Shown here piece by piece: positions 8,956 through 53,220 of a stretch of DNA of 55,561 bases (position 1 is its first letter; each line of letters opens with the position of its first letter). The notes under the pieces were generated by a model. The model did not search any database and was not told where the DNA came from. It saw only the letters and a list, made by a program, of their open reading frames with translations. The DNA comes from Bacteroidales bacterium (lineage in GTDB: Bacteria; Bacteroidota; Bacteroidia; Bacteroidales; F082), in the NCBI GenBank assembly GCA_017630195.1, contig JAGBVS010000176.1, positions 1-55,561 of the forward strand, given 5' to 3'. The translations under genes were made by a program, and so were the position numbers.

Positions 8956-9001
8956 AGGGACTAAAGGAAAGAGGTGAAACTTTCCTTTAGTCCCTTTTTT
9001 T
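8956..9001 (+). terminator. Strong rho-independent terminator
   Basis: AGGGACTAAAGGAAAG (8956-8971) pairs perfectly over 16 bases with 8980-8995 across an 8-base loop, then a T run. It ends the 4401 gene. Confidence 0.92.
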
Positions 9002-9113
9002 AGGATTTCAGTATTTCAGGAATTCAGGTGATGTAATAATTTCATTGTTGACTTTATCGCTCCATCACTTCATTACTCCATCACTAAAAAAGTTCAACAG
9101 CCAAAACTTTCTG
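8999..9113 (+). repeat. Composite intergenic module, partial copy upstream of fic
   Basis: The order of words is TTAGGATTTCAG, CAGGAATTCAGGTG, ATGTAATAATTTCA, then CTCCATCACTTCATTACTCC and ATCACTAAAAAAGTTCAACAGCC. The same series in the same order and orientation follows the fic stop codon at 10214-10295, so fic is bracketed by direct copies. After the CAACAGCC word this copy switches to TTTCTGAG/TTCTGAAT words instead of the promoter-bearing half. Confidence 0.7.
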
Positions 9114-9153
9114 AGTTTCTGTGATTCTGAATTTCTTGTTTATAAAAAATAGT

Positions 9154-9238
9154 GGCGGTGTAAATTGATATTTTGGCGGTGTAAATTATAAAAAAGTGGC
9201 GGTGTAAAATATTTGTGTCGTTTAATTTGTTATCTTTG
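9154..9238 (+). promoter_or_regulatory. Operator-like triple repeat and -7 box of fic
   Basis: GGCGGTGTAAA occurs exactly three times in direct orientation at 9154-9164, 9175-9185 and 9198-9208. Steps of 21 and 23 bases place the copies on one face of the DNA helix. A TATCTTTG box follows at 9231-9238 and the fic ATG at 9266. Fic has a C-terminal winged-helix domain and no regulator gene is adjacent, so autoregulation through these repeats is the simplest reading. Confidence 0.65.
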
Positions 9239-9265: not shown

Positions 9266-10216
9266 ATGATTTCAAATGACTTACAAGATAAAATAAAGCA
9301 ATGTGACGCTTTTCAACATGAACTTTGGTCATATCGTCCGTTGTCTCCAGAGACATTGATGTCGTTGAAAGAATATTATAGAATAGGAACAACATATTCG
9401 AGTAATGCTATCGAAGGAAATAGTTTGACAGAATCGGAGACAAAAGTTGTTATAGAGAACGGACTGACTATAGAAGGAAAGCCATTGCGTGATATTTATG
9501 AAGCTGTAGGACATGCTAAAGCATACGATTATTTGTATGAATTAAATCGTGAAGAACCGATTACCGAAGAAATAATATGCAATATTCATAAGTTTTTTTA
9601 TCAGCAGATTGATGCGGATAAAGCAGGAGTATTCCGCAAGGTTCCAGTTTTTATTAGTGGCAGCAGATATGCAGTAGCGCCTGTTTCAGAAATTAGCAAA
9701 CGTGTTAGACAGTTGGTTCAATGGTATAACAACAATGAAAATAAATTGCATCCTGTTATTTTGGCGGCAGAATTGCACAAGCGTTTTGTCTTCATACATC
9801 CATTTATAGATGGAAATGGTCGTGTAGCGCGTTTATTGATGAATTTATCATTGATGCGTAATGATTATAATATCGCTATAATTCCAGCTGTAACACGAGC
9901 TGAATATATAGAAGTCCTGGAAAAGGCCCACAATAATGATGAGGTTTTTACGTCATTTATTGCAGACAGAATAATGATGACTCAGTTGGAGATACTTAGA
10001 CTTTTCCGTGAGATAGAACCTGAACCTCAAAAAGTAGATTTTGAAAAATTGTTATTAGATACAATTATAAGCAATCCAGGTTTGAATGCACCATCTTTAT
10101 CAAAGAGATTAGGTAGAAGTCTTAGAACTACGCAACGATATTTGAAAAAATTAAGTGATAAAAAACTAATAATTTTTAAAGGTGTTGCCAAAAACGGAGG
10201 ATATTTTGGAGTTTAG
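9266..10216 (+). CDS. Fic family protein (AMP-transferase type) with C-terminal winged helix
   Basis: Fic enzymes transfer AMP (or another phosphate-linked group) from a nucleotide to a target protein. Residues 178-186 read HPFIDGNGR followed by VAR, the full active-site motif with catalytic H178. Residues 46-51 (SNAIEG) fit the inhibitory motif [S/T]xxxE[G/N] placed before the Fic fold, i.e. a class II self-inhibited Fic with E50 as the blocking glutamate. Residues about 262-316 form a winged-helix DNA-binding domain (LSKRLGRSLRTTQRYLKKL). No antitoxin-like partner lies next to it. The stop codon TAG falls at the edge of the repeat module that follows, and an operator-like triple repeat precedes. 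Targets cannot be read from the sequence. Confidence 0.9.
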   Translation: MISNDLQDKIKQCDAFQHELWSYRPLSPETLMSLKEYYRIGTTYSSNAIEGNSLTESETKVVIENGLTIEGKPLRDIYEAVGHAKAYDYLYELNREEPITEEIICNIHKFFYQQIDADKAGVFRKVPVFISGSRYAVAPVSEISKRVRQLVQWYNNNENKLHPVILAAELHKRFVFIHPFIDGNGRVARLLMNLSLMRNDYNIAIIPAVTRAEYIEVLEKAHNNDEVFTSFIADRIMMTQLEILRLFREIEPEPQKVDFEKLLLDTIISNPGLNAPSLSKRLGRSLRTTQRYLKKLSDKKLIIFKGVAKNGGYFGV

Positions 10217-10394
10217 GATTTCTGGATTTTAGGAATTGAGGTGAGGTAATAATATCACTCCATTACTCCATCACTAAAAAAAAGTTCAACAGCCTTAGCT
10301 CAATAGCCAAAGTTCAAAAATAACTCCTAATTAAAAAAAACTTGTAGTCTTGTAGTCTTGTTGACTTGTGGTCTTTTTTCTTATCTTTGCATCT
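10214..10394 (+). repeat. Composite intergenic module, full copy with promoter, upstream of the ABC-F gene
   Basis: In order: TTTAGGATTTCTGGATTTTA, GGAATTGAGGTGAGGTAATA, CACTCCATTACTCCATCACT, AAAAGTTCAACAGCC, CTCCTAATTAAAAAAAAC, then 8-base words TTGTAGTC repeated, TTGTTGACTTG and finally TATCTTTGC (10382-10389). The last block acts as the -33/-7 promoter of the following gene. Matching copies in the opposite orientation, each again pointing at the downstream gene, lie at 44030-44223 and 47840-47990. Confidence 0.75.
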
Positions 10395-12314
10395 ATGATA
10401 TCAGTACAAAATCTTAGCATGCAGTTTACAGGTGAAGACCTCTTCACCGACATCAATTTTATGATTCGCGAGAAAGACAGAATAGGCCTCGTCGGCAAAA
10501 ACGGCGCAGGCAAGACTACTCTCATTCGTCTTTTGTGCGGACTTGAACAACCTTATAAAGGCGACGTGATAATGTCGGACGACGTCACTGTCGGTTATCT
10601 TCCTCAGGAGAAAAATGTCAAGAGCGAGAAGACTGTCCTCGACGAGGCAATGACGGCTTTTGAAGAATATTACGAGATAGAACGTCAGCTTGCTAAATTG
10701 CAGGATGAGCTTTCTGACAGAGAAGACTATGAGAGCGCTTCATATCAGCGTCTCTGCGAAAAGATGAGTCATCTCAACGAGCGTCTCGCAATTATGGGCG
10801 GTCATTCTATCGAGGGCGAGGCTGAGCAGATTCTCATAGGTCTCGGCTTCGAACATAACGACATGCAACGTCAGATGCGAGAGTTTAGCAACGGATGGCA
10901 GATGCGTGTGGAACTCGCCAAGATTCTCCTTCGTAAACCTAAATTGTTGCTTCTCGACGAACCTACCAACCACCTCGACATTGAGTCAATACAATGGTTA
11001 GAAGGTTTTTTGAAAAACTATTACGGAGCTATCTTCATGGTGTCGCACGACAGGGCTTTCCTCGACCATATCACCATAAGAACGATAGAGATTTCATGCG
11101 GCAAGATTTACGATTATAAGTGCTCTTATTCCGAATTTATTGAGAGAAGAGAAGAGCGTATCGATATACAGAAGGCAGCCTTCGACAATCAGCAGCGTGA
11201 GATAAAAGAGATTGAGGCTTTCATTGAACGTTTCAGATATAAGGCTACTAAAGCCAAACAGGTGCAGTCGAGAGTGAAGCAGTTAGAGAAGATGGACGTG
11301 GTGCAAATCGACGACCAGGATAAGTCGGCCATGCACTTCAAGTTCCCGCCAGCACCGCATTCTGGTAAGGTGACTCTCGAAATCAATAATCTGTCGAAGT
11401 CGTACGGCGAGAAAAACATCCTTAACAATATAAACCTCCTCATCCCAAGAGGGGAGAAGATAGCTTTCGTGGGTCGTAACGGCGAAGGTAAATCTACCTT
11501 GTCTAAAATCATAGCCGGCGTCTTGGATTATGAGGGCGAGTTGAAACTCGGTCACGAGGTGAAGATTGGTTATTACGCCCAGAACCAGCAGGATATGTTA
11601 GACCCGGAGAAGACCGTCTTTGAAACCCTCGATGACGTCGCTACTGGCGATATGCGTGTCAAGGTGAAATCGCTGCTTGGTGCTTTCCTCTTCAGCGGAG
11701 AGGCTATAGATAAAAAGGTGAAGGTGTTGTCGGGAGGTGAGAAAGCTCGTCTCTCATTGGCTAAGATGCTCCTTTTCCCAACGAATCTCCTTATACTTGA
11801 CGAACCTACTAACCACCTCGATATGCTGTCGAAAGACATCCTCAAGTCGGCATTGCTGCAGTTTGACGGAACTTTGATAATAGTCTCTCACGACCGTGAC
11901 TTCCTCCAAGGTCTGACAAATAAGGTCTATGAGTTTAGAAAACCTAATATCAAAGAATATATCGGCGACATCTACGATTTCTTAGAAGAGAAGAAAATGA
12001 AAGAACTCGACGACCTCAACAAGAAGATGAAGTCGATGCCAACGGAAAACAATATCTCTCAAGGCAAGTTAGATTACGAGACTAAGAAGCAAAACGACAG
12101 AGAGATAAAACGTATAGAGAGAGAAATAAAGAAAATAGAAGAACAGATTGAATCTTTGGAGAATGAAATTGCTGAGATGGACAAGGTGATGTCGTCTCCT
12201 ACAGACTATCCTAATATCAATATCGATAATGCCTGGTATTCATCATACGGGGAGAAAAAAGAAAGACTCCAAGATTTGATGAACCAGTGGGAAGAGAAAT
12301 CAATGAGTATATAA
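10395..12314 (+). CDS. ABC-F family ATPase (ribosome-associated type)
   Basis: This 639-residue soluble protein has two ABC cassettes and no membrane domain. Cassette 1: Walker A GLVGKNGAGKTT, a degenerate signature FSNGW, Walker B LLLLDEPTNHLD. Between the cassettes lies the helical linker typical of ABC-F (about residues 240-300). Cassette 2: Walker A GRNGEGKST, signature LSGGEKARLSLA, Walker B LLILDEPTNHLD. A charged coiled coil closes the protein (about 540-625). ABC-F proteins bind the ribosomal E site and help stalled or antibiotic-blocked ribosomes; the subtype (Uup/YheS/YdiF-like) is not settled here. ATG 10395 was chosen over the longer GTG 10368 because the extension runs through the promoter box; only five bases then separate the box from the ATG, suggesting a nearly leaderless mRNA. 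Confidence 0.92.
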   Translation: MISVQNLSMQFTGEDLFTDINFMIREKDRIGLVGKNGAGKTTLIRLLCGLEQPYKGDVIMSDDVTVGYLPQEKNVKSEKTVLDEAMTAFEEYYEIERQLAKLQDELSDREDYESASYQRLCEKMSHLNERLAIMGGHSIEGEAEQILIGLGFEHNDMQRQMREFSNGWQMRVELAKILLRKPKLLLLDEPTNHLDIESIQWLEGFLKNYYGAIFMVSHDRAFLDHITIRTIEISCGKIYDYKCSYSEFIERREERIDIQKAAFDNQQREIKEIEAFIERFRYKATKAKQVQSRVKQLEKMDVVQIDDQDKSAMHFKFPPAPHSGKVTLEINNLSKSYGEKNILNNINLLIPRGEKIAFVGRNGEGKSTLSKIIAGVLDYEGELKLGHEVKIGYYAQNQQDMLDPEKTVFETLDDVATGDMRVKVKSLLGAFLFSGEAIDKKVKVLSGGEKARLSLAKMLLFPTNLLILDEPTNHLDMLSKDILKSALLQFDGTLIIVSHDRDFLQGLTNKVYEFRKPNIKEYIGDIYDFLEEKKMKELDDLNKKMKSMPTENNISQGKLDYETKKQNDREIKRIEREIKKIEEQIESLENEIAEMDKVMSSPTDYPNINIDNAWYSSYGEKKERLQDLMNQWEEKSMSI

Positions 12315-39540: not shown

Positions 39541-39554
39541 TTTTTATATTTTAG

Positions 39555-39632
39555 TGAGGGACAGAGGGACAGAGGGACAGAGGGGCTAGAGTATTTTCCA
39601 TACCCTCTATTCCCTCTATTCCCTCTATACCT
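39555..39632. repeat. Octamer-word hairpin between array genes
   Basis: The left arm is AGGGACAG repeated three times plus AGGGG; the right arm is ATTCCCTCT repeated three times. The two pair in several registers. It lies between the stop of the 39634 gene and the start of the 37264 gene and could be a terminator or attenuator, or stabilise an mRNA end. Confidence 0.7.
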
Positions 39633-39633
39633 C

Positions 39634-41718: not shown

Positions 41719-44025
41719 TTAATTTTTAATTATTCTTATAATACTATTTTCTTTATCTGTATTTATCTCAACGAAGTAAATGCCGCTATTATAATTTGAA
41801 ATGTTTATTTCTAACTCGTCGGAATTTGCTTCGATTTCATCAATTAATATTCCTAAATAATTATACACCTTCACTGATGAAATGCGTGAACCTGTGACTT
41901 TGACAAAGTCTTCTGCAGGGTTAGGATATATCTCGAAATTATTATTTATTTCATCAATATATTCTCCAATGAGTGTGAATTCTAATGATTCTGACTGTTC
42001 CGATTCGCCGTTTTCACATACTGAAGCTACTGTGAAAGAGTGTGTTCCTTCTTCGTCAAAGCCTTTGACGTATGATGTTTCTGCTGTTGTGTCTAATTTT
42101 TCTCCATCTAAATAAATGACATATTCGTTAGCGTTTTCGGCAGCGTCCCAAGACATGGTGACTTTGAAATTGTAATCGAAGCCTTCAGCGTCTTGTTCTA
42201 TGGAAGCGTTGAGGTTGGTAGGAGCGTTGCATATTATTTCTTCCTCTTCGCCGCCGAGGTCGATTGTGCCGGCAAGTCCAACAGATTGTTTTTCGTCTTC
42301 ATAGATAGCGATAATATTGACGGCTTTCAATCCTGCTACGCCATCGAGGTGATAAGAGAGCTCTGAGGTGTTGTCGGCTTTTAATTCGCCGTTGACATAA
42401 ACGTCATATCCTATAGGAGAGCCTTGGGATGGAGCTTCCCATGTTATCTGCAAACCTTCTTCGCTGTTGCCTTCAAGTTGGATATTCTCTGCTGGATAAG
42501 GATGACTTGTGTATTCATACAAGAAATGGCTGTTGTAAATCTCGTAAGAGATGTAATCTTGAGCCCATACTGCAACTTCTAAGTCGTTGGTTTCTTCCAT
42601 GAAAGTGTTGCTCATATCGTATGAGAACTCGAAGTGTTTTGTTTCGCCTACTTGGAATGTTGTCTCTGTACCTTCTGCGTCTTCTAACATCTTCATCATA
42701 ATATGATGGAATTCTGTCTCGCCGTTATAACCTACATTACCTGTTGTAGTCTTTTCGTTTACAGAGATATAGATTCTTGTCTCTGGCATATTAACGAGAG
42801 CCATGACATCGGCCGACACGGTGATGACGCTGCCTTCCATATTGAAAGCGCCTTTGATGTCGATGTATGAAGGAGTGTTGAGACGTTGGTTGAGGAGATT
42901 TTGAGTGATGGCAGCGCCGCCTTGGTCGATGCCGTCGATGAAGAGCTGTGGTGCTCCTGTCACGTTATAATAATTTTTTCTTTCCAAGCCTTCTTCTGTG
43001 CAGTAAGCGTCGCCTTCGAGAGGCCAGTTCATGGCGTATTTGGTGTAAGTGTATTTTCCAGGATTGTTCTCTGTCAATAATGCCATCGATTCGTTGACCA
43101 TGACGCAAGGAGCGCATGTCGAACTTGAGAAGTGTTCAATCATAGGAGTTCTTTGTGCTGTTCCTATGGCTGCTTTTATTTCTTGTGTCGCTACGTTGTC
43201 GTAGGTGACATCTTCTACGCCGTTGACATTTAATATTGTTAATGTGATGGTGTAGTTGCCAGGTGTTAAAGCGACAGTTTTGTTGAATACGAAATCAGCT
43301 TTTGTTGTAGAGCTGAGGTTTGTTTGGAATGTCTCAACGACAGGAGCATTGTCATTTATCTGATAACTTGCTTCGAAAGAGCTGATATTTTCAACACCTA
43401 TGTTTTGTACTTTGAAACCTACTTGATTGTCTTCTATGCCCACGATGTTCGGGAAGTTTACCGACAACATGCTGAGGTTGAGTTGGTCTAAGGTATATAC
43501 TTCAATATCGTCGAAGTACCATCCGTTCATATTGTTAGAGTCGCCGGTGTAGAAGATACAGAATTTGACGTTTGATTTTCCCATATCGACAGTGTTGACA
43601 TTAGCGACGATGCTATGTTGACCTTGGTTATGAGTGGCGTATGTTTCTTGCCAAGCGATGTTCCATGTGATGCCGTTGTCGGATGATGTTGCCACGCCCA
43701 TTTGGTGAGGCACGTTTTGGTAGTTGTCGAGGAAAGCCTTGAATGAGAAAATCACTTCATCGACGCCTGTGAGATCGACGGCAGGAGAGACGAAACGAGC
43801 TGTTCCGTTGAAAGCCGGTCTCCAGTAGAGTTTTATCTCGTTAGGTTCGCCGCCGGCTTGATGTGTAGGCCATATCGACCAGTTTTCGACGCCTGCGCCT
43901 TCGTATGTCCAGTCGGTAGGAAGCTCTTCTGATTCAAAAAATTGTCTTAAGTACGAAACTCTGCTTTGTGCAAACATAGAAGCAGAAAGCAATAAAGCTA
44001 AAGCTAAAAGTAAAGTTTTTCTCAT
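41719..44025 (-). CDS. T9SS cargo with choice-of-anchor J, Omp28/thioredoxin-like (CAPC) and cysteine-paired FN3 domain
   Basis: The 768 residues carry signal peptide (MRKTLLLALALLLSASMFAQ), anchor J (about 23-180), CARDB-like (about 183-287), and a thioredoxin-like domain with C304-A-P-C307 and a GAP where others have GVP. An FN3 module is followed by a second FN3 with NAPTNLNASIEQDAEG and paired cysteines, the same module as in the 33075 and 35658 proteins. A sorting domain (EIYPNPAEDFVKV to IIRIIKN) ends it. Transcription likely starts from the promoter-bearing repeat module just upstream (TATCTTTG at 44060-44053). Confidence 0.86.
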   Translation of the reverse strand: MRKTLLLALALLLSASMFAQSRVSYLRQFFESEELPTDWTYEGAGVENWSIWPTHQAGGEPNEIKLYWRPAFNGTARFVSPAVDLTGVDEVIFSFKAFLDNYQNVPHQMGVATSSDNGITWNIAWQETYATHNQGQHSIVANVNTVDMGKSNVKFCIFYTGDSNNMNGWYFDDIEVYTLDQLNLSMLSVNFPNIVGIEDNQVGFKVQNIGVENISSFEASYQINDNAPVVETFQTNLSSTTKADFVFNKTVALTPGNYTITLTILNVNGVEDVTYDNVATQEIKAAIGTAQRTPMIEHFSSSTCAPCVMVNESMALLTENNPGKYTYTKYAMNWPLEGDAYCTEEGLERKNYYNVTGAPQLFIDGIDQGGAAITQNLLNQRLNTPSYIDIKGAFNMEGSVITVSADVMALVNMPETRIYISVNEKTTTGNVGYNGETEFHHIMMKMLEDAEGTETTFQVGETKHFEFSYDMSNTFMEETNDLEVAVWAQDYISYEIYNSHFLYEYTSHPYPAENIQLEGNSEEGLQITWEAPSQGSPIGYDVYVNGELKADNTSELSYHLDGVAGLKAVNIIAIYEDEKQSVGLAGTIDLGGEEEEIICNAPTNLNASIEQDAEGFDYNFKVTMSWDAAENANEYVIYLDGEKLDTTAETSYVKGFDEEGTHSFTVASVCENGESEQSESLEFTLIGEYIDEINNNFEIYPNPAEDFVKVTGSRISSVKVYNYLGILIDEIEANSDELEINISNYNSGIYFVEINTDKENSIIRIIKN

Positions 44026-44029
44026 TGAT

Positions 44030-44223
44030 TTATTTTAAATTAAAAACGCGCGCAAAGATAATAAAAAAGACAACAAGTCAACAAGACTACAAGACAACAA
44101 GTTTTTTTAGTGATGGAGTGATGGAGTAATGTGGTAATGGAGTGATGGAGTGATGAAGTAAATAGTGAAATTATTACCTTACCTCAATTCCTGAATTCCT
44201 TAACCCTGAAATCCAGAAATCCT
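44030..44223 (-). repeat. Composite intergenic module with promoter, full copy
   Basis: Read on the minus strand the order is AGGATTTCTGGATTTCAGGG, GGAATTCAGGAATTGAGG, TAAGGTAATAATTTCAC, repeated ACTCCATC words with CACTAAAAAAAC, TTGTTGTC/TTGTAGTC words, TTGTTGACTTG, and TATCTTTGC (44060-44052). The word order equals that of 10214-10394. The last seven codons and stop of the ATPase gene lie inside the first block, so that protein's C-terminus (RISGFQG) is supplied by the repeat. Confidence 0.75.
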
Positions 44224-45510
44224 TATAAAGGCTGGCATTACTTCTATTTTTAATCCGTTGTGTTCTATCAAACGTGATTGATTGAAAGTGATTATTTTAC
44301 AATTTTTACAGCCAGTGACAGACGATGCAGTTTTCAAGCCTTCTATTTCTCTATTAATGTTAGATTCGTCTAAAGACCAGCAAACTTGTATAAGTTCTGA
44401 TATTTCATTGCCACGTTGTACAACGAAATCACATTCGTTTCCATCTGAAAAATAATATATACGATCGTTTTCCGACATATTTCTTTTAATATCTAAAAAG
44501 ACAATGTTTTCCAGTGCTTTTCCTTCGTCTTCGTTTTGTGATAGCAATACTGCATTACTCAATCCTATATCTGCTACATAGTATTTCGCAGAAATAGAAC
44601 TCTCTTTGATTAATGATTTGGTATAATGTGGAACTTTATGAAATAAAAAAATGTTACATGCGTATTCAAGCCACAAATAAAGTGAATCTTTTGAAACCTT
44701 CAACCCTTGTGATTTTAATTCGTTGTAAATATTATTTACACTTGTGGGTTTTGTGAGATTTAACATCACTCGTTTTAAGAAATAACGTATTACTTCTGGG
44801 GATGTTGTTATTCTGTAGTGTTCAATCAAATCGCGGAATAACATTGTGTTGAAATATGACTGAAGCGTTTTTATTTTTTCGGTGTAATTATTGGTGAGTA
44901 CAACTTGTGGAAATCCACCTTCTTTACAATATTTATGAAATTCATTTGCTAAAATAGCAGCTCCGTCTTCTGTATATTTGTTAGCTTTTATTGATTTAAA
45001 ATCAAGGTATTCTTGAAAACTTAATGTGTATTCTCTATATTCATCTGGCCAACCTCTTAAAGCTGATGACATTTCTTCTGATAGCATTTTTGCCGTACTG
45101 CCTGTAATGAATATATTTTTACAATAATTTTTATATATTCTAAGAACAAATAATTCCCAACCTTCAATCAATTGGATTTCATCGAAAAACATATATACAT
45201 CTTTAAGATTTTGTATAGGAAACATTTCTCTGTATGATTGAAGTATTTCGTCTAGATTTTCTGCTTTCAATGACATGAATCGCTCATCGTCGAAGCCTAT
45301 ATATAGAATCCTTTCACGAGGGATGCCTGATTGTAACAATTGATTAATAGCAAGTCCTAACAGTGATGATTTTCCGCAACGTCGAATTCCTGTCACAGTT
45401 ACAATGCGATCATTGTTTATTGGCAATTTTGTTTCTCTTTCGATTAAAGAAAATGGTATTTCCTCTTGGTGTAAGGCTATTATTGATTTGAAAGTATTCT
45501 TTAGTTCCAT
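44200..45510 (-). CDS. AAA ATPase (AAA_14) with DUF4143 domain
   Basis: The 436 residues hold an N-terminal P-loop ATPase (Walker A TGIRRCGKSSLL, Walker B MFFDEIQLIEGWE, then TGSTAKMLSEE as sensor-like). A winged-helix segment (about 245-310, TSVNNIYNELKSQGLKVSK) and a C-terminal DUF4143 nuclease-like fold (VADIGLSNAV, DFVVQRG) follow. The family is common as solitary genes in Bacteroidetes; its role is unknown. The longer frame to 45645 was rejected: it reads through a promoter box and palindromes, giving a repeated FPYKKEK. ATG 45510 lies 13 bases after TATATTTG. It interrupts the T9SS array and is flanked by repeat-module copies. Confidence 0.85.
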   Translation of the reverse strand: MELKNTFKSIIALHQEEIPFSLIERETKLPINNDRIVTVTGIRRCGKSSLLGLAINQLLQSGIPRERILYIGFDDERFMSLKAENLDEILQSYREMFPIQNLKDVYMFFDEIQLIEGWELFVLRIYKNYCKNIFITGSTAKMLSEEMSSALRGWPDEYREYTLSFQEYLDFKSIKANKYTEDGAAILANEFHKYCKEGGFPQVVLTNNYTEKIKTLQSYFNTMLFRDLIEHYRITTSPEVIRYFLKRVMLNLTKPTSVNNIYNELKSQGLKVSKDSLYLWLEYACNIFLFHKVPHYTKSLIKESSISAKYYVADIGLSNAVLLSQNEDEGKALENIVFLDIKRNMSENDRIYYFSDGNECDFVVQRGNEISELIQVCWSLDESNINREIEGLKTASSVTGCKNCKIITFNQSRLIEHNGLKIEVMPAFIRISGFQG

Positions 45511-45523
45511 AAATATTTTTTTG

Positions 45524-45596
45524 CAAATATACGTCTTTTCCTTTTTATAAGGAAAGTTTTTTGATATTTTTTCCTTTTTATAAGGAAAGTTTTTTT
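45524..45596 (-). promoter_or_regulatory. Promoter and two operator-like palindromes of the ATPase gene
   Basis: The -7 box TATATTTG (45531-45524, minus strand) is preceded by two copies of TTTCCTTATAAAAAGGAAA (within 45536-45562 and 45569-45596). Each is a palindrome with TTTCC/GGAAA arms, and the copies repeat every 33 bases, three helical turns. The nearer copy covers the expected -33 position, so a bound protein would block the promoter. The ATPase's own winged-helix segment is the nearest candidate binder. Confidence 0.6.
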
Positions 45597-45639
45597 CGGC
45601 AGACTCTGGCATCGTGCACGAAGTCTTTTGACTATTGAT

Positions 45640-45802
45640 CCGCAATTCCGTAGAGACGTCACTCCGTGGCGTTTTTAAAAAAGAATTCCTGAATTCCTCA
45701 AAAAGAGACGCATCAACGACATATAGTTTATCTTCTGTGTCGTATGATACGTCTCTTTCTCAATTCCAAAAATCCAGAACTCCAGAAATCCTCAAAAAGT
45801 TC
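45640..45802. repeat. Palindromes and repeat words between the ATPase and the 45803 gene
   Basis: Two GTCTCTAC-type palindromes are present. The first starts GTAGAGACG at 45650 with ACGTCAC/GTGGCGT arms. The second is 45704-45756, with AGAGACGCATCA..ACGACA pairing with TGTCGTATGATACGTCTCT. Around them are module words: GAATTCCTGAATTCCTC, and on the minus strand AGGATTTCTGGAGTTCTGG and GGAATTGAG, a partial copy upstream of the ATPase gene. Confidence 0.55.
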
Positions 45803-47821
45803 TTATTTTTTAAGAACTTTTTGAATTTGGTTTCCGTTTTCTGTCTCAATATTGATGAAATAAATTCCGGAATTGTATCCTGAAATGTTTATTTCTACTT
45901 CGTTGGCATTGACTTCTATCTCTTCAATCATCATTCCTAAACAGTTGTAAACTTTTATTGTCTTGAGTTGTGTGCCGTGGGCATTGAGTTTGACAAAGTC
46001 TTTCGTTGGGTTAGGGTAGATGTTGATATTGTCAGCGATGATTTCTTCTACATTGTCTCCTGCTGTGATGATTTTTGCTACTGCTACCGATGTTCCATTT
46101 TCATATACAGCAACTACTTCTGCTGTCTTATGTGTCTGGTTAGCATCGGTTTTGGTATATTCTAATGCGTTGACATTCTCAGCTTCTAACTCTCCATTAA
46201 CATATACGTTATATCCTGTTGGGTTTCCTGTTTCAGGAGCGTTCCAGCTTATTTTAAGGTTGCTGCCGTTAATCTCAGCGCTCATATTTCTCACAGGATA
46301 AACGTGTTCGTTGTTTTCGTATGCGTAATGGCTATTGTAAATCTCTTTTGTTTCATAATTTTGTAACCATAATGCTACTTCCAAATCATTCATCTCTTCG
46401 ACAAAAGTTGATGACATATCGAATGAGAATTCGAGGTGTTGATATTCGCCAGCATTGATATTCATAGTGTTGCCTTCAGCGTCTTCCAACATCTTCATCA
46501 TGACATGATGGAATTCAGTCTCGCCGTTTGAAGCAACATTGCCTGTTGTTGTTGTCTCGTTTACAGTGATGAATGCTCTTACGTTCTCCATGTTGAAATA
46601 TGACATGAAGTCGGCTTTTATATTGATAGTGTTGCCTTCAATATTGAAAGTTCCTCTTACGTCTGCGAATGCAGGTTCGTTGTAGCTCGCTGTGAAATTG
46701 TCTTCTGATATTGCGTTATATCCTTGGTCGATGCCATTAAGGAAAGTCTGTGGTACGCCTAAAACATTGTAATATGTCATTCTAGCTCCGCCTTCTGCTG
46801 TGAAATAAGGGTCGCCTAAGCCTGGACCGTTTGATGTATATTTGGTGTAAGTGTATTGGCCTTCATGGTTTTCGGTGAGAGCTGCCATCTGAGTGTTGAC
46901 GGCTACACATGGTCCGCATGTCGAACTTGAGAAGTGTTCAATCATAGGTGTTCTCTGTGTCTGACTCAAAGCGGAAGCTATCTCTTTGCTTAAAACGACG
47001 TCTGTCAATTCTTCGTCGCTGTCGTTCAATTTGGATATTTCTACACTGATGTTATAGTCTTCTCCGGGAGCGAAATTGTATTTTGAACTGAATGTAAATT
47101 CTTTTGATTCCATGGAAGGGACGTTGGCGAAGAATGTCTGTTGTTCAGTCTCGCCGTTTATAGTATAGCTTGCGACCATAGATTCTATTGGGCTGCTGCC
47201 TGAGTTTTTTATTGTGAAGCTGATAGGACGGAGTCCGAATTTCACTGTGCTTGGCACGTCGATGCTTGTGAGTTCAACGCCGAGGTCTTCAACGGTATAA
47301 ACCTCGAAATCGTCGAAATACCATGAGCTGATATGGTTGGAGTTGCCTTCGAAGTAGAAGCAGAACTTTACGCTGCTTTTGCCCATATCAGGACTTGTTA
47401 TGTTTTCGAGTATTGTGTATTGTCCGTTTTCGCTGTATTGGTCCGACCATACTGTATTCCATGTGTTGCCGTTGTCGGATGATGTGGCAACGCCTACTGT
47501 GGCGGTATGGCTGCCGAAGAATGAAGGGTAATGTTTCAAAGCTATGATGGCAGAAGAGACATCACTTAAATCGACGGTTGGAGAGACGAAACGAGCTATG
47601 CCGTTAAAAGGAGGTGTCCATTGAAGATGGAGTTCGTTTGGCTTGCCGCCGGCAATATTACTTGTGGAGATGTACCAGTTGTTGGTGCCGCTGCCCATTT
47701 TTGTCCATCCTTGAGGCAATGTGCTACCGTCGAAACTTTCGTTGATGATGTAGATGTTTTCTTGTGAAAATACTGATAAAGAAAACAATAATGCAATAGC
47801 TAAAAGTAAAGTCTTTCTCAT
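45803..47821 (-). CDS. T9SS cargo with choice-of-anchor J and Omp28/thioredoxin-like domain (CGPC)
   Basis: The 672 residues follow the standard plan: signal peptide (MRKTLLLAIALLFSLSVFSQ), anchor J (about 25-178), CARDB-like (about 182-286), thioredoxin-like with C302-G-P-C305 (the classic thioredoxin active-site dipeptide) and GVP, one FN3 module, and a sorting domain (NIYPNPTKDFVKL to QKVLKK). Its promoter is the TATCTTTG box at the end of a full repeat module upstream. First of the CGPC members in coordinate order. Confidence 0.86.
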   Translation of the reverse strand: MRKTLLLAIALLFSLSVFSQENIYIINESFDGSTLPQGWTKMGSGTNNWYISTSNIAGGKPNELHLQWTPPFNGIARFVSPTVDLSDVSSAIIALKHYPSFFGSHTATVGVATSSDNGNTWNTVWSDQYSENGQYTILENITSPDMGKSSVKFCFYFEGNSNHISSWYFDDFEVYTVEDLGVELTSIDVPSTVKFGLRPISFTIKNSGSSPIESMVASYTINGETEQQTFFANVPSMESKEFTFSSKYNFAPGEDYNISVEISKLNDSDEELTDVVLSKEIASALSQTQRTPMIEHFSSSTCGPCVAVNTQMAALTENHEGQYTYTKYTSNGPGLGDPYFTAEGGARMTYYNVLGVPQTFLNGIDQGYNAISEDNFTASYNEPAFADVRGTFNIEGNTINIKADFMSYFNMENVRAFITVNETTTTGNVASNGETEFHHVMMKMLEDAEGNTMNINAGEYQHLEFSFDMSSTFVEEMNDLEVALWLQNYETKEIYNSHYAYENNEHVYPVRNMSAEINGSNLKISWNAPETGNPTGYNVYVNGELEAENVNALEYTKTDANQTHKTAEVVAVYENGTSVAVAKIITAGDNVEEIIADNINIYPNPTKDFVKLNAHGTQLKTIKVYNCLGMMIEEIEVNANEVEINISGYNSGIYFINIETENGNQIQKVLKK

Positions 47822-47839
47822 TGATTTATTATTAATTTA

Positions 47840-47990
47840 ATACGCATGCAAAGATATAAAAAAAGACTACAAGTCAACAAGACTACAAGACTACAAGATT
47901 TTTTAATTAGGAATTAGGAATTAGGAGTTGAGGAATGATTTTTTTGAACCATTAAACCTGAGTTCCTGAAATCCTAAAATCCTAAAAAAG
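47840..47990 (-). repeat. Composite intergenic module with promoter, full copy
   Basis: On the minus strand: TTAGGATTTTAGGATTTCAG, GAACTCAGG, TCAACTCCTAATTCC words and AATTAAAAAATC, TTGTAGTC repeated, TTGTTGACTTGTAGTC and TATCTTTGC (box 47856-47849). Compared with 10214-10394 the CCATCACT block is missing, but the order of the rest is the same, again ending in the promoter of the next gene (45803). Confidence 0.7.
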
Positions 47991-48033: not shown

Positions 48034-48144
48034 GGGCGTTCCGGCTTTGCCGTCGGGCTTTCCGCTATATCTTTTTCCGCCTCCAGCTTCCGTCTCCGCC
48101 TTCAGCTTCCGCCTCCAAAAGGATGCCGCTCCAATCCCTAACGC
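48034..48144. repeat. GC-rich REP-like element
   Basis: GGGCGTTCCGGCTTTGCCGT at 48034 continues into CGGGCTTTCCGCT, then C-rich CTCCAGCTTCCGTCTCCGCC-type words, then AAAAGGATGCCGCTCC and CCTAACGC at 48144. GGGCGTT and AACGC can close a stem, and AAAAGGAT can pair with ATCTTTTTCC. It is much more GC-rich than its surroundings and not coding. From memory, similar GGGCGTT...CCTAACGC elements are dispersed in Bacteroidetes genomes; this was not checked. Confidence 0.55.
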
Positions 48145-48195
48145 TGAGGGGCTGCGAGTAATGAACTGCAATCTATGGACAAAACTGCCACATCT

Positions 48196-51143: not shown

Positions 51144-51183
51144 ATCTTTAGACCACTTGTAGTCTTGTGGTCTTGTAGTCTTA

Positions 51184-53220
51184 TCAAAGTTTAACAACTT
51201 TACGGCTTACAACGTTTTCGTTTGATTCTACTTGGATGAAGTAGATACCTGTGTTGTAGTCGTTCATGTTGATTTCAGCATTGTTGCTTCTAACTTCAAT
51301 TCTTTCAACTAAAACGCCGATGCTGTTGTAAATGCTTACGCTGTTGATATTTTCACCGCTAACTCTTACAACGTCCTTAACAGGGTTAGGATAGATGTTT
51401 AAGTTATCTTCAGCTTCGTTTTCCATTACGCTAACGTCATTGCTGTTGAATTTCTTAACAATGCCTACAGATGATTTGCCACCTTCATATAATGCTATAA
51501 CTTCAACCAATAATATTTGTTTGCTTGATTCATAGCTTATTGATGTTGATGATGTGTTTTCAACTAAAGAACCGTCAACATAAACTTTGTAGCCTGTTGG
51601 AGTTGATTGAGCTGGAGCGTCCCATGCAAATGTTCTTGTGCCTTTAGCTGATGCTGTTTCTCTTAAATTTTCAACTGGGTAGCAGTGGCCTGTATATTCG
51701 TAAGCGTATTTACTGTTGTAAACTTCTTTGTTGCCTAAGTTTTGTAACCATAATGAAACTTCGAGGTCGTTCATTTCTTCAACGTTTGTTGATGACATAT
51801 CGAATGAGAATTCGAGTCTTTGGTATTCACCTGGGTTGATGCTGATGTTGTTGCCGTTAGCACCGTCTAACATTTTCATCATAACGTGGTTGAATGATGT
51901 TTCACCATTGCTGCCAACGTTTTCTGTTGTTACTTTTTCGTTTACAGAGACGAAAGCTGCTACGTTTTCTAATTTAACGTATGACATGAAGTCGGCTGTG
52001 ACGTTGATTGTGTTGCCTTCAACATTGAAAGCACCTCTGATGTTAGTATAAGCTGGTTTGCTGTTTTCAATGTCTAACATGTTTTGAGCCATGCTTGTGT
52101 TAACGTAAGAACCATTGAAGAAAACTGTAGGAACAGCGTCGCAAGCATAGTAAGCTCTTCTTATGCCGCCTTCTTCTGTGTAATATGGGTCACCTGTGCC
52201 AGGCCAGTTCATTTGGTATTTTGTATAAGTGAATTTGCCAGGGTTGTTTGTTGTGAGTTGGCTCATTGTGTAGTTTACAGAAACACATGGTCCGCATGTT
52301 GAACTTGTGAAATGTTCGATCATAGTTGTTCTTTGTGAGCTGCCCCATGCTGCGAAAATGTTTTTGTCTAATGAGTTGTTGCTTGCATCTCCGTCAACTT
52401 CGCCGTTAACGCTGTTGATTTCTACAGTTATGTTATAATATTCATCTTGTGGTTGAGCTAAGAATGTTGCATTGCTTAAGTAGCTGAATGCAATTTGTCT
52501 TGTTTCAAATGGAGCTAATGTTTGGTCGATTGTTGCTACTACTGCTTCGTCCCAGCCTGTAACGTTTACTGATGCTTCGAAGTAGTTAACGATTGTCTTA
52601 CCAACGTTTTGTACTGTGAAAACTATTTCTGTTTCTCCTGTAGGGATGATTTCTGGTGTGTCGATGCTGACGAGTTTAACGTCTATGTCTTCTTGTGTGA
52701 AGATTTCGAAGTCGTCGAAGCTCCAGCTGTTGATGTTGTATGAGTTGCCTTCGTAGAATAAGCAGAATAAAACGCTGCTCTTACCCATATCAGGAGTTGT
52801 TATTACTTGGTTGATATTAGCACCACCAGACATGTTGTATGATTGTTCCCAACCTGTATTCCATGTGTTGCCACCATCTGATGATGTTGCGATACCGATT
52901 TTACTTGCATCACCGTAGTTGTCGAGATAATGTCTGAATGAAACAACAACTTCTTCAACGTTTGTTAAGTCAACAGGGTTCATCACGATACGTGATACTC
53001 CGTCGAAACTTGGGTTGTAGTATAAGTATAATTCGTTTGGTGTACCGCCAGCATTGTTTGTTGATGAAATTGACCAGCTGTTGGTGCCTTTGCCTTGGAT
53101 TGACCATCCAGCAGGAAAATCGCTGCCGTCAAAAGATTCTTGGATGAGACCTGCTCTGTTTTGTGCAAACATTACTGTTGAAAGTAATAATGCCAATGTA
53201 AATAGTAAAGTTTTTCTCAT
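51184..53220 (-). CDS. T9SS cargo with choice-of-anchor J and Omp28/thioredoxin-like domain (CGPC)
   Basis: The 678 residues carry signal peptide (MRKTLLFTLALLLSTVMFAQ), anchor J (about 24-176), CARDB-like (about 180-293), thioredoxin-like with C309-G-P-C312 and AVP in the cis-proline place, FN3 (YPVENLRETASAKGTRTFAW), and a sorting domain (NIYPNPVKDVVRV to RKVVKL). Differences from its near twin at 48901 are concentrated in the CARDB-like and FN3 parts, while the thioredoxin-like and sorting parts are kept. A TATATTTG box lies 37 bases upstream. Confidence 0.87.
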   Translation of the reverse strand: MRKTLLFTLALLLSTVMFAQNRAGLIQESFDGSDFPAGWSIQGKGTNSWSISSTNNAGGTPNELYLYYNPSFDGVSRIVMNPVDLTNVEEVVVSFRHYLDNYGDASKIGIATSSDGGNTWNTGWEQSYNMSGGANINQVITTPDMGKSSVLFCLFYEGNSYNINSWSFDDFEIFTQEDIDVKLVSIDTPEIIPTGETEIVFTVQNVGKTIVNYFEASVNVTGWDEAVVATIDQTLAPFETRQIAFSYLSNATFLAQPQDEYYNITVEINSVNGEVDGDASNNSLDKNIFAAWGSSQRTTMIEHFTSSTCGPCVSVNYTMSQLTTNNPGKFTYTKYQMNWPGTGDPYYTEEGGIRRAYYACDAVPTVFFNGSYVNTSMAQNMLDIENSKPAYTNIRGAFNVEGNTINVTADFMSYVKLENVAAFVSVNEKVTTENVGSNGETSFNHVMMKMLDGANGNNISINPGEYQRLEFSFDMSSTNVEEMNDLEVSLWLQNLGNKEVYNSKYAYEYTGHCYPVENLRETASAKGTRTFAWDAPAQSTPTGYKVYVDGSLVENTSSTSISYESSKQILLVEVIALYEGGKSSVGIVKKFNSNDVSVMENEAEDNLNIYPNPVKDVVRVSGENINSVSIYNSIGVLVERIEVRSNNAEINMNDYNTGIYFIQVESNENVVSRKVVKL

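Follow-up and report, generated by a model that had tools for sequence, protein, structure and literature searches.

The repeat composites at three sites of the window, which is the whole stretch of 55,561 nucleotides that was analysed, are probably copied from a repertoire of short, dispersed tandem-array cassettes, which would spread by copying between loci and be tolerated in slots where they do little harm; from the sequence comparisons, we assign this reading a rough probability of 0.6. As a part of the same joint explanation, the cassette is probably the exchangeable upstream segment at promoters, and the −7 box would belong to the gene and stay. The cassettes are dispersed in the genome, most often contain four units, keep an order with other blocks, have an orientation bias, carry differing words at orthologous sites, and occur in frame within genes.

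Structure of the composites in the window

An earlier note on this DNA had listed eight ordered words at three sites. Their order and orientation were as claimed there, but the third copy carries only four of the words: the exact words numbered eight of eight at 10214–10394, seven of eight at 44052–44223 (CTCCTAATT is missing), and four of eight at 47848–47927 (CTCCTAATT, TTGTAGTC, TTGTTGACTTG, and TATCTTTGC), the third copy having an additional related block b word (Table 1). All three copies were confirmed to face the downstream gene and to end in the TATCTTTG box, and the Pfam domains of the downstream genes agree with the proposed ABC-F ATPase and two T9SS cargo proteins (Por_Secre_tail). 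Two partial copies had also been proposed: that at 8999–9113 is real, but it runs on into a TTTCTGAG array rather than a promoter, and that at 45670–45800 retains only GGATTTCTGG/GGAATT words. Most of the blocks are degenerate tandem arrays or fragments of such arrays.

Table 1 Positions of the blocks, cassettes, and −7 boxes in the window, with the state in the relatives G094 and G136 where available
Feature	Position	Strand	Remark
Block b, GGATTTCTGGATTTTAGGAATTGAGG, degenerate 8-mer words	10216..10241	+	overlaps and trails the end of the Fic gene (9266–10216)
Block c, GTAATAAT	10246..10253	+	
Block d, 8-mer array of ACTCCATC	10254..10275	+	
Block e, GTTCAACAGCC..AGCCAAAGTTC	10284..10315	+	common to further intergenic composites
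Block f, CTCCTAATT, 7-mer word	10324..10332	+	
A-tract of the promoter slot	10333..10340	+	
Octamer cassette, four units: CTTGTAGT CTTGTAGT CTTGTTGA CTTGTGGT	10341..10372	+	G136: heptamer cassette at this position
T-tract CTTTTTTCT, cassette to box	10373..10381	+	
−7 box TATCTTTG of the ABC-F gene	10382..10389	+	start codon at 10395; box kept in relatives
−7 box of the T9SS cargo gene 41719–44025	44053..44060	−	
T-tract, four-unit octamer cassette (44070–44101), A-tract	44063..44108	−	G094, same promoter: heptamer cassette
Block d, ACTCCATC array	44109..44160	−	
Blocks c and b: GTAATAAT, GGAATTCAGGAATTGAGG, GGATTTCTGGATTTCAGG	44170..44222	−	
−7 box of the T9SS cargo gene 45803–47821	47849..47856	−	
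T-tract, four-unit octamer cassette (47866–47897), A-tract	47859..47904	−	G136, same promoter: CTTTTGC x4
Block f, 7-mer array of CTCCTAATT	47905..47927	−	
Block b, GGATTTTAGGATTTCAGG	47965..47982	−	
Non-promoter octamer array, three units, reads AAGACTAC	51156..51179	+	past the 3′ end of the gene 51184–53220 (−)
Two convergent word arrays forming a single long hairpin, intergenic	39550..39633	−	G094: other words (inverted repeat); G136: absent

The convergent arrays at 39550–39633 fold with −51.7 kcal/mol (z = −8.3). The hairpin of the promoter cassette is weak (z = −1.7 and −2.8 for the two strands) and consists chiefly of the A-tract against the T-tract. The three window copies are not palindromic: inverted repeats of 8 bp or longer were not found in them by a tool that excludes homopolymer runs.

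Several other features were seen in the window. The Fic gene and the AAA_14/DUF4143 gene (44200–45645) are flanked by word arrays, and the corresponding places of G094 gave no match to either gene. A 23-bp direct repeat, TTATAAAAAAGTGGCGGTGTAAA, occurs three times at 9140–9212, and copies resembling it lie upstream of the ABC-F gene in G094 (locus L061) and, reversed, in G136 (L062). A repeat resembling the Flavo-1 RNA (RF01705) is present at 48047–48157 (−), whose 39.1 bits fall short of the cut-off of 42 (E-value 5.7e-7); by eye, Flavo-1-like sequence also adjoins composites at L002, L003, L005, L014, and L027.

Dispersal of the arrays

In the genome that contains the window (G000; 2.74 Mb in 213 contigs), the 181-bp query gave at least 47 matches, with 40 of the 236 candidates scored. 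CTTGTWGWCTTGTWGWC occurs 270 times in the 2.74 Mb, overlaps counted, versus 0 for the reversed control, and a 0.706-Mb sample, partly picked from contigs with matches, contains 209 arrays of period 7–9, versus 2 after block shuffling. By these numbers, the recurrence is not due to chance, an explanation that the earlier note had already found hard to accept. By period, the 209 arrays divide into 69 (7 bp), 107 (8 bp), and 33 (9 bp), and part of the period-9 arrays are protein repeats within genes. Peaks at 7, 8, and 9 were also found for the repeat lags of the intergenic regions, with masked bases (2560 N in the sample) artificially raising the coding baseline of this analysis, and arrays of period 6–10 are present in 93 of 182 intergenic regions. 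The commonest words are CTTGTAGT, CATAATT, ACTCCATC, GCCAACA, CTAAAGT, and CCCTCTATT.

The array density is 296 per Mb in G000, whose stretches, like those of G094, were partly chosen for holding matches. At the ABC-F loci of five close relatives, it is 100–599 per Mb, each value coming from a single locus of 12–21 kb with 2–12 arrays (L066, which has hardly any intergenic DNA, was omitted), and the pooled more distant relatives gave 63 per Mb (29 arrays in 463 kb) and 39 per Mb (37 arrays in 942 kb). The strict octamer pattern was found in nine of the 119 family genomes, G000 included, and all nine belong to one genus. The compared genomes are all drafts and mostly metagenome-assembled; the nearest named relatives are metagenome-assembled genomes of ruminant-gut Bacteroidales and Lentimicrobiaceae.

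The octamer arrays of CTTGTAGT (n = 57) have a clear preference in unit number: 37 have four units, and 9, 7, and 4 have two, three, and five units, respectively. They start with CTTG and mostly finish with a partial CTT, independent of the flank. Fifteen of them lie directly before TAnnTTTG, all in the promoter orientation, and none was found in the mirror orientation. By the same criterion, the remaining 42 do not adjoin a −7 box, and most of these are located in 3′ flanks or within genes. Eleven lie in ORFs, nine of which read AAGACTAC on the coding strand, and 31 are elsewhere intergenic, with 23 directed at a neighbouring gene's 3′ end; L154:10090, counted among these 31, is in fact a promoter array whose diverged unit caused it to be missed.

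Promoter slot and block order

At promoters, an A-tract, four 8-bp units, CTTTTTTNN, and TATCTTTG follow one another, and the heptamer form is alike, with four 7-bp units. The distance from the last unit to the box is 9 nt in 19 of 34 cases. By sequence, the box of the array promoters matches TAnnTTTG, which is given as the consensus at −7 of the Bacteroidetes sigma-ABfr promoters (PMC7366714). A runs of at least 6 were counted in 25 of 30 array promoters versus 29 of 91 others, and T runs of at least 5 in 27 of 30 versus 27 of 91; these contrasts are lower bounds, since the non-array class includes some diverged array promoters. When slot arrays were collected by regular expression, four units were counted for octamers in 18 of 23 (G000), 2 of 4 (G094), and 0 of 1 (G136), and for heptamers in 5 of 7, 3 of 3, and 4 of 4, respectively, the heptamer expression demanding three units and the count being depressed by diverged units. 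Among 237 box sites in other relatives, there were two octamer arrays, one of which is the own locus again (L208), and no heptamer array. At 10382–10397, the ABC-F start codon lies 5 nt past the −7 box, and the distance is 4–5 nt in several relatives; a leaderless mRNA is predicted from this distance.

The upstream blocks obey the order seen in the window. Among 27 octamer promoters, 54 pairs of upstream blocks are in the window order and 2 are against it, and after exclusion of the three copies in the window, which had defined the order, the ratio is still 40 to 2. Six of the 27 promoters have no upstream block, and five have block f in antisense. Across the sample, neighbouring blocks follow the window order in 58 cases and the reversed order in 2, with the same orientation in 60 and the opposite orientation in 10. 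The description of the blocks in the earlier note as copied, dispersed, and ordered holds, as does the strict orientation of the octamer block beside the −7 box (15 versus 0). The composites do not share one ending: that of L002 terminates in a heptamer cassette and the equivalent one at the window site in an octamer cassette, and at L023 and L027 (less clearly at L028) block e is followed by TTCTGAG words and no promoter.

Cassettes at orthologous promoters

Orthologs in the available stretches of G094 and G136 were found for 8 of the 19 array promoters of G000, which provided 16 comparisons. All 15 usable alignment rows retain the −7 box; the sixteenth row had matched a paralogue, and after it was settled by synteny, the box was found to be kept there as well. 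In the same 16 comparisons, seven of the relatives' cassettes remain octamer arrays, and nine are heptamer arrays. The sequence downstream is retained together with the box while the cassette switches from octamer to heptamer; in one case, where the adjacent gene shows 95.6% identity over 500 nt, G000 has an octamer x4 and the relative a heptamer x4.

Further relatives extend this series at the ABC-F slot. G089 and G097 carry other four-unit words, G132 and G124 have an 8-bp perfect hairpin instead of an array, and G101, G103, G107, and G108 have no array; the TAnnTTTG box follows the slot in all further relatives compared. For the period 7–9 arrays with orthologous flanks in four stretches of G000, the same word was found in 24 of 67 comparisons, another array in 17, and none in 26, the last class being unreliable because diverged arrays of four 7-mers miss the threshold. 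Another 33 array comparisons had no ortholog. At the two tandem T9SS genes, one G136 site mapped in this analysis onto the neighbouring paralogue and was not taken as a loss.

The earlier note had proposed that the composite delivers promoters to unrelated genes. This proposal is not supported, since the −7 box and the downstream sequence stay while the orthologous cassette changes, and since 42 of the 57 octamer arrays lie away from a box. A box that is kept while the cassette is exchanged would mean that cassettes occupy a slot before existing promoters; on this comparison, they have the look of exchangeable filler and not of promoters that move.

Arrays within genes

Arrays of period 7 or 8 were found at 23 places well within ORFs of at least 120 codons. 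In TilS, octamer arrays encode residues 59–71 and 332–344. G094 has both, G136 has the first in part, and G107 and G108 have other words there. At the first site, 25 of 32 aligned rows, which are the more distant sequences of the genus, have a compact loop; the other seven rows, from five species (G000, G094 twice, G136 twice, G107, and G108), have word-encoded inserts, whose words differ between species. The tilS gene, at L153:926–2434 (−), has several such inserts. Since neither 7 nor 8 is divisible by 3, a word strand that is free of stops lacks them in every frame. The CTTGTAGT strand contains stops and the complementary strand none, and CTTGTAGT arrays are found both behind stop codons and in frame within genes, tilS being an example.

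Copying between loci and slippage

Identical cassettes recur at unrelated places. One octamer 32-mer is present at eight G000 loci, namely three promoters and five other places, with differing flanks; one 29-mer is shared by three G000 loci; and T9SS promoter 1 of G000 shares an identical cassette with T9SS promoter 2 of G094. Identical four-unit combinations form 24 pairs versus 11.8 expected (P = 0.010). Such identity at unrelated loci indicates copying between loci, although a copying event within one species was not caught. Array length also shifts in place by whole units (for example, 21 bp for a heptamer and 16 bp for an octamer array), which indicates that slippage acts as well. ABAB patterns exceed the shuffled expectation for octamers (4 versus 1.3, P = 0.01) and for generic period 8 (7 versus 2.7, P = 0.002), and no such excess over shuffles was found for heptamers; the octamer excess hints at doubling in place.

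Slippage could also be taken as the whole explanation, with arrays born and homogenized locally by concerted evolution and the shared words reflecting polymerase bias and intergenic composition. The whole-unit length changes and the octamer ABAB excess agree with it, and heptamer arrays of other organisms have been explained by slippage (PMC4679880, PMC4692102). We nevertheless consider it rather unlikely, because heterogeneous four-unit cassettes are identical at unrelated loci, unrelated blocks keep their order over 100–180 bp, and the unit length switches between 8 and 7 while the box and the gene are kept. Copying between loci together with slippage is rated above slippage alone.

A bolder possibility, which we regard as speculative and no likelier than slippage alone, is that in this clade a dedicated exchange process continually overwrites promoter-upstream slots, essential-protein loops, and 3′ flanks, using species-specific four-unit words and outpacing point mutation, the number four being conserved though the unit length is not. 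Two candidate causes were rejected. Loss of mismatch repair does not fit, as MutS_V was matched in 60 of 60 genomes of the genus, including G000, and neither does a reverse transcriptase, as RVT_1 was matched in 32 of 60, with neither G000 nor G136 among them.

A mobile promoter element, in which the composite brings its own −7 box, inserts before genes, and supplies the promoter, is improbable and at the sites tested largely refuted by the comparisons above. It would account for the single orientation of the octamer block before TAnnTTTG, for the extension of 26 of the 47 query matches to the box, and for the conserved block order. Against it stand the box kept at the compared orthologous promoters despite a differing cassette and, for the ABC-F gene, kept even in the four array-less relatives, together with the many octamer arrays away from a box and the lack of inverted repeats of 8 bp or longer in the three copies.

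Hardly better placed, and if anything a little less probable, is an array of regulatory binding sites, in which four tandem words bind a regulator and unite the genes in a regulon. The fixed copy number and the fixed spacing to the box are what such an array would have, but equivalent promoters carry different words between species and within the genome, and identical cassettes also lie in genes and 3′ flanks. The functions of the downstream genes are mixed as well. A Pfam scan of 23 of the 31 listed genes behind array promoters, one of which had no match, suggested purE, lepA, ftsY, rsfS, mutS2, serS, a Mur ligase, a UDP-sugar dehydrogenase, an arginase, a fucosidase, subtilases, T9SS cargo, and others. 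The single regulon envisaged by the earlier note finds no support in this mixture, and the idea was dropped on that ground. A −33 box provided by the third unit (CTTGTTGA) was likewise discarded: in 37 arrays, the CTTGTTGA variant occupies units 3 and 4 in 11 and 9 cases and units 1 and 2 in 1 and 2, and in 16 other intergenic arrays units 1–4 have it in 1, 1, 6, and 3, so that the same bias away from promoters leaves it no proof of a −33 role.

A MITE-like miniature element of the transposase type is very improbable: its defined ends would suit the array ends of constant phase (CTTG at the start, usually CTT at the end, whatever the flank) and the absence of the array region 39541–39633 from G136, but the three copies lack terminal inverted repeats (0 pairs of 8 bp or longer), the alignments of filled and empty sites, with few clean pairs, show no consistent target-site duplication, and no similar phage or plasmid record was found by BLAST with the low-complexity filter on, which may hide arrays; carriage by a phage or plasmid was set aside on the same search.

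What we infer is that the copies travel by recombination and that the segment before the −7 box has a role that tolerates changes of sequence. In the preferred reading, copying from a dispersed repertoire, a cassette consists of roughly four tandem units, all of a single 7- or 8-bp word (28–35 bp), and 9-bp words likewise occur, often as longer arrays. Copying between loci would most likely proceed via non-allelic recombination, gene conversion, or template switching, and may be guided by the A/T tracts and the common unit ends. Cassettes would then persist where they do little harm, as in the slot from A-tract to T-tract upstream of a sigma-ABfr type −7 box; the gap between stop codon and terminator and, for the stop-free strand only, protein loops may be other such places.

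Comparison with known repeats

Cyanobacterial STRR repeats, which are dispersed heptanucleotide tandem repeats, resemble the cassettes. The present arrays occur above chance and are mostly intergenic, as dispersed simple sequence repeats of 5–11 nt do.

The closest known arrays are the heptamer arrays of Xanthomonas, Nostoc, and Beggiatoaceae. In Xanthomonas and Nostoc, heptamer arrays of GGGAATC and GGGGA(C/T)T have been described (PMC4692102), which are similarly dispersed, degenerate, and mostly intergenic, with few intragenic ones and with convergent inverted pairs; prominent repeats lie at different genes in two close species, and four-unit arrays are the majority in Xanthomonas, as they are in our octamer arrays (37 of 57). 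However, those repeats are G-rich, with one word per genome studied, whereas many words of 7, 8, and 9 bp are found here, and the fixed promoter slot and the differing words at orthologous sites set the present arrays apart from them. Four G- or C-runs, the mark of a G-quadruplex in our test, were seen in 8 of 219 arrays, and doubled words of the GGGAATC type in none.

The TAACTGA direct repeats of Beggiatoaceae, cyanobacteria, and some Bacteroidetes (PMC4679880) also have mostly 2–6 copies and are mostly intergenic, and they contain stops in all frames one way and are found in ORFs in the opposite orientation; Bacteroidetes have other heptamer arrays beside them (PMC4679880). Unlike the present cassettes, they lie mostly at start codons and were interpreted as translational sites, and in the available part of that paper word exchange at one site was not found reported. 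The doubled TAACTGA word does not occur in the 0.706-Mb sample. Rickettsia palindromic elements are likewise dispersed DNA found in frame within unrelated genes, but they are about 150 bp long and palindromic (PMC10969869), in contrast to the mostly intergenic tandem words of 28–36 bp here. In a limited literature search, no description of exchanged words at orthologous promoters or in protein loops came up.

Biological significance

Between close species, whole cassettes are replaced in promoter-upstream DNA and in protein loops with the box and the gene kept, which an ordinary alignment would show as fast divergence. Such replacements provide many natural swap experiments on how far the sequence upstream of the Bacteroidetes −7 box matters, and the origin and spread of heptamer-type arrays become directly testable within one clade.
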